Origin: Candidatus Poseidoniaceae archaeon
Lineage (GTDB): Archaea; Thermoplasmatota; Poseidoniia; Poseidoniales; Poseidoniaceae
Assembly (NCBI GenBank): GCA_938030705.1
Contig: CALHIR010000005.1
Coordinates: forward strand, 87,231 to 132,908
Direction: 5' to 3'
DNA length: 45,678 bases
Shown here: positions 39,884-44,880 of the stretch, piece by piece
Layout of the letters: the number at the start of each line of letters is the position of its first letter
Numbering within the stretch: the stretch's first letter is position 1
Program-made: the position numbers and the translations under genes
The notes under the pieces: model-generated
Told to the model about the DNA's origin: nothing
Database searches by the model: none
What the model saw: the letters and a program-made list of their open reading frames with translations, nothing else

Positions 39884-41083
39884 TCAAACAAGTTTTGCCC
39901 ATCCCTTGAGAACAAGGAACGTCGCGCCTGATTCGTGAATGCGAATTCGTTCCCCGAGATTGCTCTCAAAACGGCGTTCACCAAATTGTGCAATGGCGTC
40001 GTCAACAATCCATTCCACCTCATGAGCATCATCCATGCCCAATACGAAAGCATCGTGAAGGGGGTTGTAAGGCCGGCCACCGTCTGGATCAAGTCGGGAA
40101 AGGGGGAATTCGGTTACGCGCATGCCGGATTTTCCATGCAGGGAGGTGGGCCAACGAATTTGCCGACGAACATCGATGGTCACCACCTCATCGGTTTCCC
40201 CAGCCGAGCCGAGGACAACCGAGGCATCTGCTTTCAGCAGGTTGAGGAATAGGGTCTGATAGTTTCCAAGAAGTTCAAATTTCCCTTCTTTCAATCGCTG
40301 AATCCTCTTGTCGTGGTCCATCAATTCAGCAAGCCGTTTTATTGCCGCCGCTGAACGCTGGGAGGTATTTCCTTCTCGGTCTTGAAGCGATTGCAGGGCC
40401 GCTTCCAAACGACGCAACTCCGCAGGACTGCCATCATCACCTCGGTGAATGGACCGGAGCGTCACCATCATTTCGTCCATGCCGTCACGAATACGTTGTG
40501 TCCAACCTTTGGCATCATGGTCGTGATAGCGAGCGAGCCCCCCTTGAACATCGACACCTTCACCACGAATGTGAGAAACCAATTCCCGACGGGCTTCGGA
40601 ATCCAAGTGGAAAAGCCTTGGGTCACGATAGTGAAGGTGAAACCCGCGATGACCAGAGAAGGTAACTTGGAGGTGCTCCTCTGAAAATCCAAACTCGGGT
40701 TCCAAGAAATCATTCCACAGCGACCAAGCTTGCTCTTGAATGACCGCAAGCATACCGGGGAAATCCCGGTCGGTGACTCCCGGCAAATGGTCGCCGTCCA
40801 GGTCAAAAATAAGGTCGGCCCCTTGCCATAATTTGTCGGCCATTTTCAATTCATACGGGCGACGCCAGTACGCAGTTGAATAGAAACATGAATGCATCGC
40901 CCGCTGCGATAAGAACGATTGAACTTGCCCCACGTCTGAAAATGATTTGTGGCGCAGCGGAGGTGCGCCTCCAAAGGGAATGAACATCCACTCTCGCGTT
41001 TTAATTCGTGGAGGAGACCACAAGGGCGCGTGTTGATAGTATTGCCCAAAACGATGTGCAAACCTTGCCCAACCGTCCGACAT
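39884..41083 (-). CDS. priS: DNA primase small catalytic subunit PriS
   Basis: This is about 399 residues with ATG 41083. The catalytic aspartates D94 and D96 lie in LIFDLDGDHLPG. SGHRGFHLHYRD is the conserved nucleotide-binding segment. A third acidic site is in TIDVRRQIRWPTSLHGKSGM. It makes RNA/DNA primers together with PriL, which is not in this window. It is transcribed after the small zinc protein gene, and 86 bases of non-coding sequence separate it from the proline-rich gene. A TTG at 41101 is a weaker alternative start. Confidence 0.94.
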   Translation of the reverse strand: MSDGWARFAHRFGQYYQHAPLWSPPRIKTREWMFIPFGGAPPLRHKSFSDVGQVQSFLSQRAMHSCFYSTAYWRRPYELKMADKLWQGADLIFDLDGDHLPGVTDRDFPGMLAVIQEQAWSLWNDFLEPEFGFSEEHLQVTFSGHRGFHLHYRDPRLFHLDSEARRELVSHIRGEGVDVQGGLARYHDHDAKGWTQRIRDGMDEMMVTLRSIHRGDDGSPAELRRLEAALQSLQDREGNTSQRSAAAIKRLAELMDHDKRIQRLKEGKFELLGNYQTLFLNLLKADASVVLGSAGETDEVVTIDVRRQIRWPTSLHGKSGMRVTEFPLSRLDPDGGRPYNPLHDAFVLGMDDAHEVEWIVDDAIAQFGERRFESNLGERIRIHESGATFLVLKGWAKLV

Positions 41084-41134
41084 AGAATTCCCCTCAAACA
41101 AACGAAAGGATGAGGGTTCTTGAAGAAAGCCGTG

Positions 41135-41344
41135 TCAGTCTTGCTTCATCCAGAACCGTTCGTCAGCATCGCTGACCTCGGTCGCAGTGTCTGCGCCTGT
41201 GGCTTCGACATAATGTTCCCAGCACATGTAGTACTTGTCCACGACCATGGCATTGCCGAACGTCAATCGCATGCCACAGGAGTGGCAGCGAGGGCCAAGT
41301 TCACCGTTGGGTGCTTGAGCGAGTTGGATGTGGTCGTGTGGCAT
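41135..41344 (-). CDS. Small cysteine-containing protein, unknown function
   Basis: This is 69 residues from ATG 41344. The CHSCGMRL motif near the start and one further cysteine (KYYMCWEHYVEA) with two histidines could form a small zinc site of the LIM/treble-clef type. The acidic tail ends RFWMKQD. No family is recognised. It lies between priS and the half-DOHH gene on the same strand, with 53 bases to the latter and 51 to priS. Confidence 0.6.
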   Translation of the reverse strand: MPHDHIQLAQAPNGELGPRCHSCGMRLTFGNAMVVDKYYMCWEHYVEATGADTATEVSDADERFWMKQD

Positions 41345-41397: not shown

Positions 41398-41886
41398 CTA
41401 CCATTCGGTTTCTTCGAACTCAGAGCCCTCGACCCAAGCCAGCAGGTCAAGAGCCACGACGCAGGATTCGGCCACTTCAGGGAGCGGATCCTCAACAAAT
41501 TTCTGGAGCGAGGGAATAACGCTTCTGTCCCCGATGGCACCCATGGCTTCCGCTGCTTCATGACGAACCATCACGTGTTCTTCGGGGTCCTCAAGCCGGG
41601 CGATAAGATTAGGCAAAGCCACGGGGTTCTGCATTTGGCCAAGGACATAGGCGATTTCATGGCGAAGCAGCGCACTTTCACTGGTGAATCCCTTGCACAG
41701 GGCCAAACAGGCCTCGTCCGTTCGTTGATTCCTGAGGGCGAACACGGCCCTCATGCGTTGGAACATCGGTTGTTCTTCATCGCACAATTGCAGAGTGAGC
41801 GAAGTTACTTCAGGCACCTTCGCAGGAGGGGCAGGGTCAACTGAACCGTATTGACTGACCTGAGGTCTACGGCCTTCGTCGGACAT
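41398..41886 (-). CDS. Half-length deoxyhypusine hydroxylase-like HEAT protein
   Basis: This is a 162-residue HEAT-repeat protein. Two HE motifs, LLRHEIAYVLGQMQ (H76-E77) and MVRHEAAEAMGAIGD (H109-E110), are spaced 33 residues apart, as in each half of eukaryotic deoxyhypusine hydroxylase. Residues 15-22 (SVDPAPPA) match the linker that joins the two halves of human DOHH. The FALRN motif after it also aligns with the second half. DOHH hydroxylates deoxyhypusine on eIF5A using a diiron centre with ligands from both halves. A homodimer could rebuild the four-motif site. The start is ATG 41886 with a GAGGGTG ribosome-binding site. It lies nine bases after the mqnD stop. The alternative is a generic HEAT protein. 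Confidence 0.85.
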   Translation of the reverse strand: MSDEGRRPQVSQYGSVDPAPPAKVPEVTSLTLQLCDEEQPMFQRMRAVFALRNQRTDEACLALCKGFTSESALLRHEIAYVLGQMQNPVALPNLIARLEDPEEHVMVRHEAAEAMGAIGDRSVIPSLQKFVEDPLPEVAESCVVALDLLAWVEGSEFEETEW

Positions 41887-41895
41887 AATTCACCC

Positions 41896-42777
41896 TCAGG
41901 GAGCACCGATGAACCTCATTGATTCGGTGTCAAAGTCGTTACGAATCAAGCCCAAATCCTGACCCTCTTTGATGAAGAGGCGGATAGAAGAACGTCCTTC
42001 TTCCCGGTAATCGATGGTACGGTCGTTCACATACATGCTCACAAATTCTTTGTTGGTATCGTCATCAATGCCTCGACCCCATGCTTTGGCAAACTCGAGG
42101 GCCTCATCAGGCGATTGGAGCGCATATTCGATACTCATTTTGGTGTATTTTGTTATGTCTTCCATGACGTCGTCTCCAAGGTCTCGGCGTACAACGTTGC
42201 CGCCCAAAGGCATGGGCCAATTCGGCGTGCGCTTATTCCACCATTTGCCAAGGTCGATGAGGACATCAAGGTCGTGGTCAACATAGGTGAGTTGACCTTC
42301 GTGGATGATAAGTCCACTCATGTAGGTGCCGTCCAAAATTCGGGGAATGATTTCATCAAACGGAACGACCGCCACTTCACAATCGCCCCAAGCCAGGCGA
42401 AGCCCGAGGTAGGCGCTGGTCTTCAGCCCGGGAACTGCAATGACATTTTCGCGGGCTTGATCTTCTGAAACACCTTGGCGGCAGACCACCATTGGGCCGT
42501 ATCCTTCGCCCATGGACGCACCGCAATTCATCAGCGCATAGTTTTCCGCAATGTCCGGGTAAGCGTGTATGGAAACAGCTGAGACTTCCAATTCTTGGTT
42601 CATCGCTCGATGATTCAGCGTTTCAATGTCCTGGAGTTCATGGACGAAATTATAGCCGGGGGTCGGGAAGGCGCCGGTGGTCATGGCATGGAACATGAAA
42701 GCGTCGTCAGGGTCGGGGCTATGTCCGATGCGCACAATTTTGTTGCCCGACTCATCGAGAGGAAGTTTGACTACCAT
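41896..42777 (-). CDS. mqnD: 1,4-dihydroxy-6-naphthoate synthase MqnD
   Basis: This is about 293 residues, a periplasmic-binding-protein-like fold. The N-terminal VRIGHSPDPDDAFMFHAMTT and VSAVSIHAYPDIAENYALM are the family signatures, with PMPLGGNVVRRDLG later. MqnD converts cyclic dehypoxanthinyl futalosine to 1,4-dihydroxy-6-naphthoate in futalosine-type menaquinone synthesis. ATG 42777 is preferred because the frame is open further up to 42864 only through a nonconserved leader that overlaps mqnA. It is the third gene of mqnE-mqnA-mqnD. Confidence 0.92.
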   Translation of the reverse strand: MVVKLPLDESGNKIVRIGHSPDPDDAFMFHAMTTGAFPTPGYNFVHELQDIETLNHRAMNQELEVSAVSIHAYPDIAENYALMNCGASMGEGYGPMVVCRQGVSEDQARENVIAVPGLKTSAYLGLRLAWGDCEVAVVPFDEIIPRILDGTYMSGLIIHEGQLTYVDHDLDVLIDLGKWWNKRTPNWPMPLGGNVVRRDLGDDVMEDITKYTKMSIEYALQSPDEALEFAKAWGRGIDDDTNKEFVSMYVNDRTIDYREEGRSSIRLFIKEGQDLGLIRNDFDTESMRFIGAP

Positions 42778-42838
42778 GGTTGATTCCACCGGTGCGCCCT
42801 TCAAGAACATTCGTTTGGGGAGTTGAGCAAATAATGTT

Positions 42839-43636
42839 TCAATCCCACGCAAAAGTTGGTTCATTTCCTATTTCGCATGCAGATTTCAAGAAACGAAATA
42901 ACCCGTCCAAATGATGTTGATTAAGCCGATTGAAGACCTCACCGTAATATTGGTCGAGTCGTTCATGACCCAGGCCTGACTTTTCCATAGACCATTGAAT
43001 CACTGACTCACGTTTGGTCGTTTGTGCCTCAAAGGCTTCTAAATTCTCAAGCAGTGCTGCATGAGCCCGTCGCAACGGTTCGAGGGGTGTATCTTTTCGG
43101 GCAACAAAAACGCCGAAGATCATCGGAAGGCTCTCTTGTTCCATCCACGCTTTACCGAGGTCCATTTTCACCATTTCTGGAAATTCACGAGCTGCCTCGA
43201 GGGCTCGGTCGCCGATGAGCAAGGCGCCGTCGGCCATGGCCATCATCGATTCATAATCAGGACCGGTTGAGACATACTTCATCGGCCGGCCTTGTTGGGA
43301 AATCAAGTGTTTGAGCAAGGCCACGGAGGTGGCGGAATCACTCGGCAGGGCGATGGTTTTCATTGAGGAAAGCGGAACCGCCCCAAACAACAACACGCTG
43401 CCCACCTCACCTTGGCTTCCGATGCCGATGTCGGGAAGGAGGACCAATTCATCGGCGTGTTTGGCATAATCCGCGGCAGGGATAGGAGCCAAGATACAAT
43501 CTCTTCGGAGGACATGCCCGGTCAACCATGCTGGAGGCGCCGAAAGCACGTTCCACTTTGAATCCAGTTCGTGATAGAGAGGGTCGCAATTGATGAACGC
43601 CACCCGTCCGAGTGTCGTGGTCCATGTTTCGGCCAT
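42839..43636 (-). CDS. mqnA: Chorismate dehydratase MqnA
   Basis: This is about 265 residues with the MqnA pattern: LGRVAFINCDPLYHELD at the N-terminus, DIGIGSQGEVGSVLLFG, IALPSDSATSVALLKHLI and ALLIGDRALEA. It dehydrates chorismate to 3-enolpyruvylbenzoate, the first step of the futalosine pathway. The start ATG 43636 lies five bases after the mqnE stop. Fold and length are normal. Confidence 0.92.
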   Translation of the reverse strand: MAETWTTTLGRVAFINCDPLYHELDSKWNVLSAPPAWLTGHVLRRDCILAPIPAADYAKHADELVLLPDIGIGSQGEVGSVLLFGAVPLSSMKTIALPSDSATSVALLKHLISQQGRPMKYVSTGPDYESMMAMADGALLIGDRALEAAREFPEMVKMDLGKAWMEQESLPMIFGVFVARKDTPLEPLRRAHAALLENLEAFEAQTTKRESVIQWSMEKSGLGHERLDQYYGEVFNRLNQHHLDGLFRFLKSACEIGNEPTFAWD

Positions 43637-43641
43637 ATTGA

Positions 43642-44880
43642 TCATCCTTGAGCCATCGGGAGTGAACGCTTGGGCAGTAAAACGGGCGCCGTGAATTCCT
43701 CAAATTTCGAATAGATGGTGTTTCGTTGGACCGGTTGGCAACCAGCGTCCTCGATCAAACGTGCAAGTTTGGCGCGGTCGTGGTCAAGTGGGGTGGTTGA
43801 ACCGGCCAAATGCATGATGGATTCCTTCTGGACGGTGCCGTCGATGTCATCGGCACCAAATTGCAGTCCCAACTCGGCGAGGTGATCGCCGATGTTCATG
43901 CGGTAGGCTTTGATGTGCGGGATATTGTTCAGCATCAACCGGGCAACAGCAATGGTGCGCAAGACCTCTGTTCCGGTGGCCAATTGAGCTTCTGGAAGGC
44001 GCGTCCGGTCTGGCAAGAAAGGATAAGGGACGAAGCATTGGAAGCCTTGGGTGTCATCGTTGAGTTCGCGTAAGGAAATCATGTGTTGCAGTCGCTGTTC
44101 AAGTCGCTCAACCGTGCCAAAGAGCATGGTGCAGTTCGATGGAAGACCGACCTCGTGCGCCTCTCGGTGAATTTGGAGGTATTCTGCTGAACTTTCTTTC
44201 CCGTTGCAAATTTGTGCCCTCACATCATCATCAAGAATTTCTGCACCTCCGCCAGGCAGCGAGGTCAACCCCGCATCTTTCAGACGCTGGAGCACTTCCT
44301 TGGTTGAAATGGAGGATTTTTGAGCGAGATGTTTGATCTCAACCGCCGTCAAGGCTTTGATGGAAATGTGGGGAAATCGCTCCGTGGTCGCAGAAATGAG
44401 TTCTTCATAATGTTCCACCCCCCAATCAGGGTGAAGTCCACCGACCGAATGGACTTCATCGACTGCGTGGGCGTAGTTCTCCAAATCCGAAAGGTATTGC
44501 TGAACGGACATGGCGTAGGCATCCGATGCCTTCGGGCCACGACGGAAGGCACAAAATTTGCAGGCCAGAACACAAATATTTGTTTGATTGATGTGGACGT
44601 TTGAGTTAAAAAAAGCCTGCGAACCAAACCTCGCTTGACGAACACAGTCCGCCAGGGCTCCGACTTCGTGGAGATCGGCATGAGTGTACAAGGCCATACC
44701 ATCGGTAAGGTTCAGGGGTTGGTTTGCCACAAGTTTCGCTACGATTGGCCGAAGAGGTTGCGACCAGTCGTTACGCTCTACATTCTCTTTCAAGCGCCCC
44801 AACCATTTGATGTGTTCACCAGCGAGGGGAACGGGTTGGACAGGGACCACCATGATGCCTTCTCCGACGAATTCATTCAT
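43642..44880 (-). CDS. mqnE: Aminofutalosine synthase MqnE (radical SAM)
   Basis: This is a 412-residue radical SAM enzyme with the CxxxCxxC motif C103, C107, C110 in HINQTNICVLACKFCAF. The segment LTSLPGGGAEILDD and IHREAHEVGLPSNCTMLFG, followed by the RELNDDTQGFQ stretch, fit MqnE better than the related MqnC. It joins the MqnA product to S-adenosylmethionine, giving aminodeoxyfutalosine. It precedes mqnA and mqnD on the strand. MqnB and MqnC are not in this window. ATG 44880 is 19 bases after the P-type ATPase stop. Confidence 0.93.
   Translation of the reverse strand: MNEFVGEGIMVVPVQPVPLAGEHIKWLGRLKENVERNDWSQPLRPIVAKLVANQPLNLTDGMALYTHADLHEVGALADCVRQARFGSQAFFNSNVHINQTNICVLACKFCAFRRGPKASDAYAMSVQQYLSDLENYAHAVDEVHSVGGLHPDWGVEHYEELISATTERFPHISIKALTAVEIKHLAQKSSISTKEVLQRLKDAGLTSLPGGGAEILDDDVRAQICNGKESSAEYLQIHREAHEVGLPSNCTMLFGTVERLEQRLQHMISLRELNDDTQGFQCFVPYPFLPDRTRLPEAQLATGTEVLRTIAVARLMLNNIPHIKAYRMNIGDHLAELGLQFGADDIDGTVQKESIMHLAGSTTPLDHDRAKLARLIEDAGCQPVQRNTIYSKFEEFTAPVLLPKRSLPMAQG

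Follow-up and report, generated by a model that had tools for sequence, protein, structure and literature searches.

A DOHH-like ORF behind a menaquinone biosynthesis gene

The window, by which we mean the whole stretch of 45,678 nucleotides that was analysed, carries a minus-strand ORF of 162 amino acids that closely resembles one half of deoxyhypusine hydroxylase (DOHH), the iron enzyme of two parts that completes hypusine on a eukaryotic translation factor. The ORF fills its interval exactly, with an ATG start, 162 codons and then a stop, and frame 1 of the plus strand across the same positions contains an internal stop. A preliminary description of this DNA, which gave no strand, had proposed a half-length protein of 162 residues with two HE motifs at residues 76 and 109, and it had recognised SVDPAPPA at residues 15–22 as the motif that links the two halves of human DOHH. 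The translated ORF bears out the length, both positions and the spacing of 33 residues. The linker motif is likewise present in the PDB chain of human DOHH, where it directly precedes the second arm; its human residue numbers were set via the HE positions published in PMC9117371. The coordinates of the gene, its motifs and its neighbours are collected in Table 1.

Table 1. Features of the DOHH-like gene and of the genes around it, in window coordinates.
Feature	Position	Strand	Remark
PriS, DNA primase small subunit	39884..41101	-	Marks an archaeal chromosome
Conserved 69-aa protein	41135..41344	-	Downstream; without Pfam or NCBIfam match; CxxC pair
Half-length DOHH homologue, 162 aa	41398..41886	-	ATG at 41886, stop at 41398-41400
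H109-E110	41557..41562	-	Counterpart of human H89-E90 and H240-E241
G83	41638..41640	-	Counterpart of human G63 and G214; invariant in 37/37 archaeal rows
H76-E77	41656..41661	-	Counterpart of human H56-E57 and H207-E208
SVDPAPPA motif, residues 15-22	41821..41844	-	Counterpart of human DOHH residues 146-153, between the halves
VitK2_biosynth (MqnA/MqnD-type)	41896..42864	-	9 bases upstream of the DOHH start
Second VitK2_biosynth (MqnA/MqnD-type)	42839..43645	-	Context
Radical SAM, MqnE/MqnC-type	43642..44880	-	Context

Chance does not explain the HE pair and the linker motif, because both are rare in shuffled proteins: when the protein was shuffled 20,000 times, two HE motifs at a spacing of 33 appeared six times and SVDPAP once.

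The protein corresponds to one arm of DOHH

Human DOHH (PDB 4D4Z) was the best match among PDB chains (E-value of 8 × 10−68), and the archaeal protein aligned to both of its halves, with 102.6 bits for the N-terminal and 130.9 bits for the C-terminal half. The three chains listed after it were designed HEAT-repeat proteins, whose best single stretch scored 36.4 bits. A profile built from 35 sequences, the archaeal protein and 34 relatives, raised the scores of the human halves to 150.8 (N) and 179.0 bits (C). In Pfam, only general HEAT families matched the protein. The best NCBIfam matches were NblB and phycobilin lyase models at 24.1–24.8 bits, against cut-offs of 300–330.

The predicted fold gave the same picture. 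An AlphaFold2 model of the monomer, made with the same 35 sequences, reached a pLDDT of 94 and a pTM of 0.89, and human DOHH was its top Foldseek target (E-value of 2.7 × 10−11, query TM-score 0.88), superposing at 1.2 Å over 148 columns with 49% identity. The next target followed at an E-value of 2 × 10−5 and a TM-score of 0.67, and no chain other than human DOHH with an E-value below 0.001 exceeded a query TM-score of 0.68. CpcE, NblB and the alphaRep designs share the general HEAT_PBS repeat with the archaeal protein, but their scores are far lower than that of human DOHH and their fold match is weaker. In the alphaRep alignments, moreover, neither H76-E77 nor H109-E110 aligns with an HE motif. 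The PDB scores, the profile, the Foldseek ranking and the score gap across the phylum (see below) thus place the match to DOHH above that to other HEAT proteins, as the preliminary description had predicted for a true family member.

Excerpts of a review (PMC9117371) list H56, H89, E90, H207, H240 and E241 as the iron ligands of human DOHH and E57, E90, E208, E241, G65 and G214 as its substrate contacts. In the human chain used here residue 65 is a methionine; it is G63 that corresponds to G214. H76, E77, G83, H109 and E110 of the archaeal protein are the counterparts of these residues in both human halves, and all five are invariant in the 37 archaeal rows of our alignment. These rows, 28 from Poseidoniales and nine from outside the order, were picked for diversity.

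The HEAT arm fold of DOHH is therefore present in the predicted model and the pattern of iron-ligand and substrate residues is present in the sequence, while the two arms and four HE motifs per chain of the human enzyme are not: the archaeal protein has one arm and two HE motifs. Its 162 residues compare with 294 in the PDB file of human DOHH, and its SVDPAPP lies near the N-terminus, whereas the human one lies between the halves. We regard homology to DOHH as nearly certain, and the protein is a half-length variant of the DOHH family that falls outside the full-length eukaryotic type. Judged by its residue pattern, each archaeal chain holds exactly one half of the predicted diiron site.

Half-length DOHH homologues are widespread in Poseidoniales

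Across Poseidoniales, 210 of 292 genomes had a match with an E-value of at most 0.001, a count that takes in fragments and remnants. These matches span 19 of the 22 genera and 25 of the 35 high-quality genomes of the order, and a few of those listed carry a stop. No DOHH match was found in the remaining 82 of the 292 genomes, in part owing to incomplete assemblies. Four genomes (G097, G099, G030 and G130) each contain two near full-length matches, which are either real duplicates or the product of mixed assemblies.

To place these results in the phylum, 389 drawn genomes were searched with the profile, and 141 had a match of any kind. Genomes G292 to G553 were taken, from their numbering, to be the draw's 262 genomes from outside the order. 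Nine of them (G292, G304, G312, G325, G330, G345, G355, G408 and G451) had DOHH-type matches of 146–219 bits, and the remaining matches outside the order resembled generic HEAT proteins and scored at most 47 bits. The nine proteins, as called by a script, are also half-length (154–181 aa). They come from genomes in six families.

A scan of a genome collection returned 229 relatives, of which the best 80 were kept. Their titles name Euryarchaeota, Marine Group II, Poseidoniales, Poseidoniaceae, Poseidonia, Thalassarchaeaceae, Thalassarchaeum and Thermoplasmatota. The names used here for the order of the window, Poseidoniales, and for its phylum, Thermoplasmatota, are taken from these titles. 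All of these best 80 have 150–162 residues, counted from the nearest ATG upstream of the match, together with SVDPAP and an HE spacing of 33, and none has four HE motifs. Two patterns were used to retrieve this set and SVDPAP was one of them, so that its conservation here is partly a product of the search; S[VI]DPAP was also present in all 28 rows of the order that were recovered by protein search. The patterns were derived from an alignment made up mostly of Poseidoniales, so that more distant relatives would escape them. Searches of viral contigs gave no confirmed relative, those of plasmids and phages gave none, and PHROGs contained no matching family.

A missing second half nearby was considered and rejected, as the genome of the window has a single match and the best 80 of the 229 relatives are half-length throughout.

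A conserved neighbourhood and apparent gene decay

The DOHH homologue and the VitK2_biosynth gene just upstream of it are probably co-transcribed. In 78 of the 80 named loci from the best 80 of 229 relatives, the DOHH gene lies directly behind the same VitK2_biosynth gene and on the same strand, with 5–56 bases (median 18) between the aligned ends of the two. PriS was within reach of DOHH in 78 and the gene for the 69-aa protein in 76 of these 80. An origin of the gene from eukaryotic contamination was rejected, given the recurrence of this neighbour and the contig itself, which is 198 kb long and has archaeal genes on either side. Among the loci compared, the two Poseidoniales families differ in how the futalosine-type run of menaquinone genes (41896–44880) is ordered and directed with respect to DOHH.

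Outside the order, we looked for named genes in the nine DOHH loci, as longest-ORF calls appeared unreliable in this GC-rich DNA. None of these loci had a match to aIF5A, deoxyhypusine synthase (DHS), SpeD or SpeB. DHS and aIF5A were likewise absent from the 1.5–3 kb flanks of DOHH in the loci examined.

In three genera (g2, g4 and g17), short and degenerate DOHH matches were found in place of the full gene (L176:1453–1596, L177:1378–1614 and L178:1321–1512). In L176 and L177 the remnants have an open menaquinone gene on one side and the small gene and PriS on the other, and that in L178 lies behind an open menaquinone gene. It looks as if the hydroxylase was lost separately in each of the three genera. 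Other irregular loci include L179, which reads in two overlapping frames, L181, which is cut by the end of its contig, and L180, which has two stops; the oddities of L179 and L181 may be assembly effects. Several genera in which the gene seems to have decayed while its neighbours stayed open provide a natural experiment on the purpose of the hydroxyl group.

Partner genes, polyamines and oxygen

The genome of the window contains two DHS-family genes and aIF5A. One of the DHS genes scored 368.8 bits against the cut-off of 350 of a deoxyhypusine synthase model, and aIF5A passed TIGR00037 (102.1 against 75.45) and has an intact hypusine loop, SKPGKHGSAK. The preliminary description had suggested checking the genome for exactly these two genes, and both are there above curated cut-offs. 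As in human cells, then, the partner enzyme and the substrate are encoded in the same genome as the hydroxylase-like protein.

The second DHS-like gene adjoins SpeD- and SpeB-type genes (L003:1486–3895). Its best match was to a homospermidine biosynthesis model, below the cut-off (118 against 450). No match to the spermidine synthase family PF01564 was found in the assembly of the window, which is 90% complete. According to excerpts of a 2023 study (PMC10407285), SpeD homologues of Marine Group II/III and of a Poseidoniales archaeon have arginine decarboxylase activity, and their genes cluster with speB and the homospermidine gene speY. The run at L003:1486–3895 resembles the Marine Group II cluster from arginine to homospermidine described in those excerpts. 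Given this homospermidine-type cluster, the lack of a PF01564 match in the assembly and the activity reported in that study, homospermidine is the likely aminobutyl donor.

DHS was present in 31 of 32 genomes checked, including 22 of the 23 that have no full DOHH. Since there are genomes with no match and genomes with remnants, and since DHS is kept in these 22 of 23, DOHH is not essential in the Poseidoniales genomes that have none.

DOHH needs O2, and its occurrence was compared with that of COX1. All nine DOHH-positive genomes outside Poseidoniales had a COX1 match, compared with 66 of the 253 others (Fisher p = 9 × 10−6, with kinship ignored). Within Poseidoniales, 117 of the 127 genomes of the draw had COX1, which leaves no contrast to be made. 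The window's own assembly, at 90% completeness, had no COX1 match.

A candidate homodimeric deoxyhypusine hydroxylase

We consider it likely that the protein is an archaeal deoxyhypusine hydroxylase that works as a homodimer, with the dimer, the iron and the reaction all deduced from the evidence above. As each chain has a single HE pair, a homodimer would be the simplest way to complete the diiron site. Each 162-aa subunit would form one HEAT arm with an iron half-site made of H76, H109 and E110, and would contribute E77, E110 and G83 to substrate binding. Two such subunits would stand in for the fused halves of human DOHH, and their six ligands together would surround a single diiron centre that activates O2. 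The canonical deoxyhypusine synthase would first add an aminobutyl group, probably from homospermidine, to the lysine of the PGKHG loop of aIF5A, and the dimer would then hydroxylate deoxyhypusine on aIF5A to give hypusine. Against this reading count the Poseidoniales genomes with no match or with remnants, the missing COX1 match in the window's own assembly, and the distance of the gene from DHS and aIF5A in the loci examined. The archaeal protein shares with human DOHH the predicted HEAT arm, SVDPAPPA and an HE pair with the ligand pattern; it differs in its archaeal host, and it would have to dimerise to form the same site.

The preliminary description had taken archaea to stop at deoxyhypusine. 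This does not hold in general, as hypusine has been reported in several Crenarchaea; what does stand is that no DOHH was known that could explain it, according to excerpts of PMC5178350 and PMC6105217. In the latter, aIF5A of S. solfataricus is described as hypusinated, and its DHS produced deoxyhypusine and not hypusine in vitro. The authors infer a second, further enzyme in this organism, with no DOHH homologue known to them. Excerpts of papers from 2012 (PMC3306375), 2016 (PMC5178350), 2018 (PMC6105217), 2020 (PMC7773846) and 2021 (PMC8153317) agree that no archaeal DOHH orthologue was known. We found no report of an archaeal half-length DOHH in the portions of open-licence papers that were searched, preprints excluded. 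Hypusine in some archaea was reported decades ago, and a marine lineage now has a concrete candidate for the missing hydroxylase. If the protein is indeed a half-length homodimer, it would also provide a minimal system for DOHH diiron chemistry.

Evolutionary origin of the half-length form

The preliminary description had left two origins open, a split from a full-length enzyme, for which it cited the retained linker, and descent from the form that preceded the duplication. Over a core of 128 alignment columns, the window protein is 45% identical to the human N half and 48% to the human C half. The 37 archaeal rows range from 39–48% to the N half and from 43–54% to the C half, and the two human halves share 39%. 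As identity to either human half is mostly higher than that between the human halves, a near-ancestral form fits better, and these values favour the pre-duplication origin over the linker-based split. On this basis, the archaeal gene probably resembles closely what eukaryotic DOHH was before its duplication, and the two human halves appear to have diverged from an ancestor similar to the archaeal form.

A phylogenetic tree, in which human DOHH was the sole eukaryotic representative, decides for neither origin. The human halves formed long branches (1.9 and 2.0) that joined the tree at separate points, with no strong support. Constraining them to a single group cost 3.6 log-likelihood units (AU p = 0.32), and two other groupings were not rejected either (p = 0.37 and 0.32).

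In the fullest version of the near-ancestral reading, to which we give an even chance, the archaea have preserved a single-arm homodimeric ancestor from which eukaryotic DOHH arose by tandem duplication and fusion. The SVDPAPP of the second copy would have become the linker, and aerobic archaea would complete hypusine synthesis with eukaryotic chemistry. Such a half-length homodimer, if real, would be a living model for the origin of the fused enzyme with its two quasi-symmetric arms.

An alternative that we find unlikely is that the gene is a detached C half, left after the transfer of a full-length eukaryotic DOHH and the loss of its N half; it would be compatible with the same function. SVDPAPP does stand ahead of the repeat, just where the human C half has it, and the C half is slightly closer than the N half in 35 of the 37 rows, which would also fit a detached half that evolves slowly. 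But a detached C half would be expected to show about 39% identity to the N half, as the human C half does, and the archaeal rows reach 39–48%. Nor does the archaeal consensus simply follow the C half: of the core sites, it agrees with C and not N at 22 and with N and not C at 15, and at four it goes against a residue shared by both human halves. This last figure is six for the rows outside the order and 7–14 for seven single rows. Finally, the wide spread and divergence of the gene in the phylum and its fixed synteny in Poseidoniales argue for an old archaeal gene.

In the DOHH half of seven genomes outside the order (L166–L172), we observed a common short insertion and a one-residue deletion; the human halves, the Poseidoniales rows and L164 and L165 have neither.

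Other functions considered

The position of the gene suggests the main rival function, namely that a diiron oxygenase with the DOHH fold was recruited to menaquinone synthesis by the futalosine pathway or to quinone metabolism in general. The neighbours are of MqnA/MqnD and MqnE/MqnC type, and the co-directional placement directly behind the MqnA/MqnD-type gene recurs in the 78 of 80 named loci described above. Of 20 genomes without DOHH, nine also have no match to this menaquinone gene, which could reflect joint loss. However, a convincing PriS match was present in only two of these nine (G039 and G112), and since the other seven have none, most of the nine assemblies probably lack the whole locus. 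The radical SAM gene had a close match in three of the nine and more distant ones in others. The menaquinone gene was kept without DOHH in the other 11 of the 20 genomes, and in all three remnant loci (L176, L177 and L178) the decayed DOHH sits beside a menaquinone gene that is open and near full-length. Joint retention and loss with the futalosine pathway was thus not observed for the one pathway gene tested. Outside the order, five of the nine DOHH-positive genomes had no match to the menaquinone gene, and none of the tested neighbours had a match inside the nine DOHH loci. Together with the invariance of the human iron and substrate residues in the archaeal rows, these results make a role in quinone metabolism improbable, and a hydroxylase acting on aIF5A remains our preferred reading.

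A non-catalytic HEAT-repeat protein, be it phycobilin lyase-like or a scaffold, would account for the general HEAT families in Pfam and the phycobilin lyase- and NblB-type models at the top of the NCBIfam matches, but it has a negligible probability and was rejected, as those models score about 25 bits where at least 300 would be needed to pass, DOHH is far better in both sequence and fold, the active-site residues are invariant, and outside the order a wide gap separates the DOHH-type scores from the generic ones.
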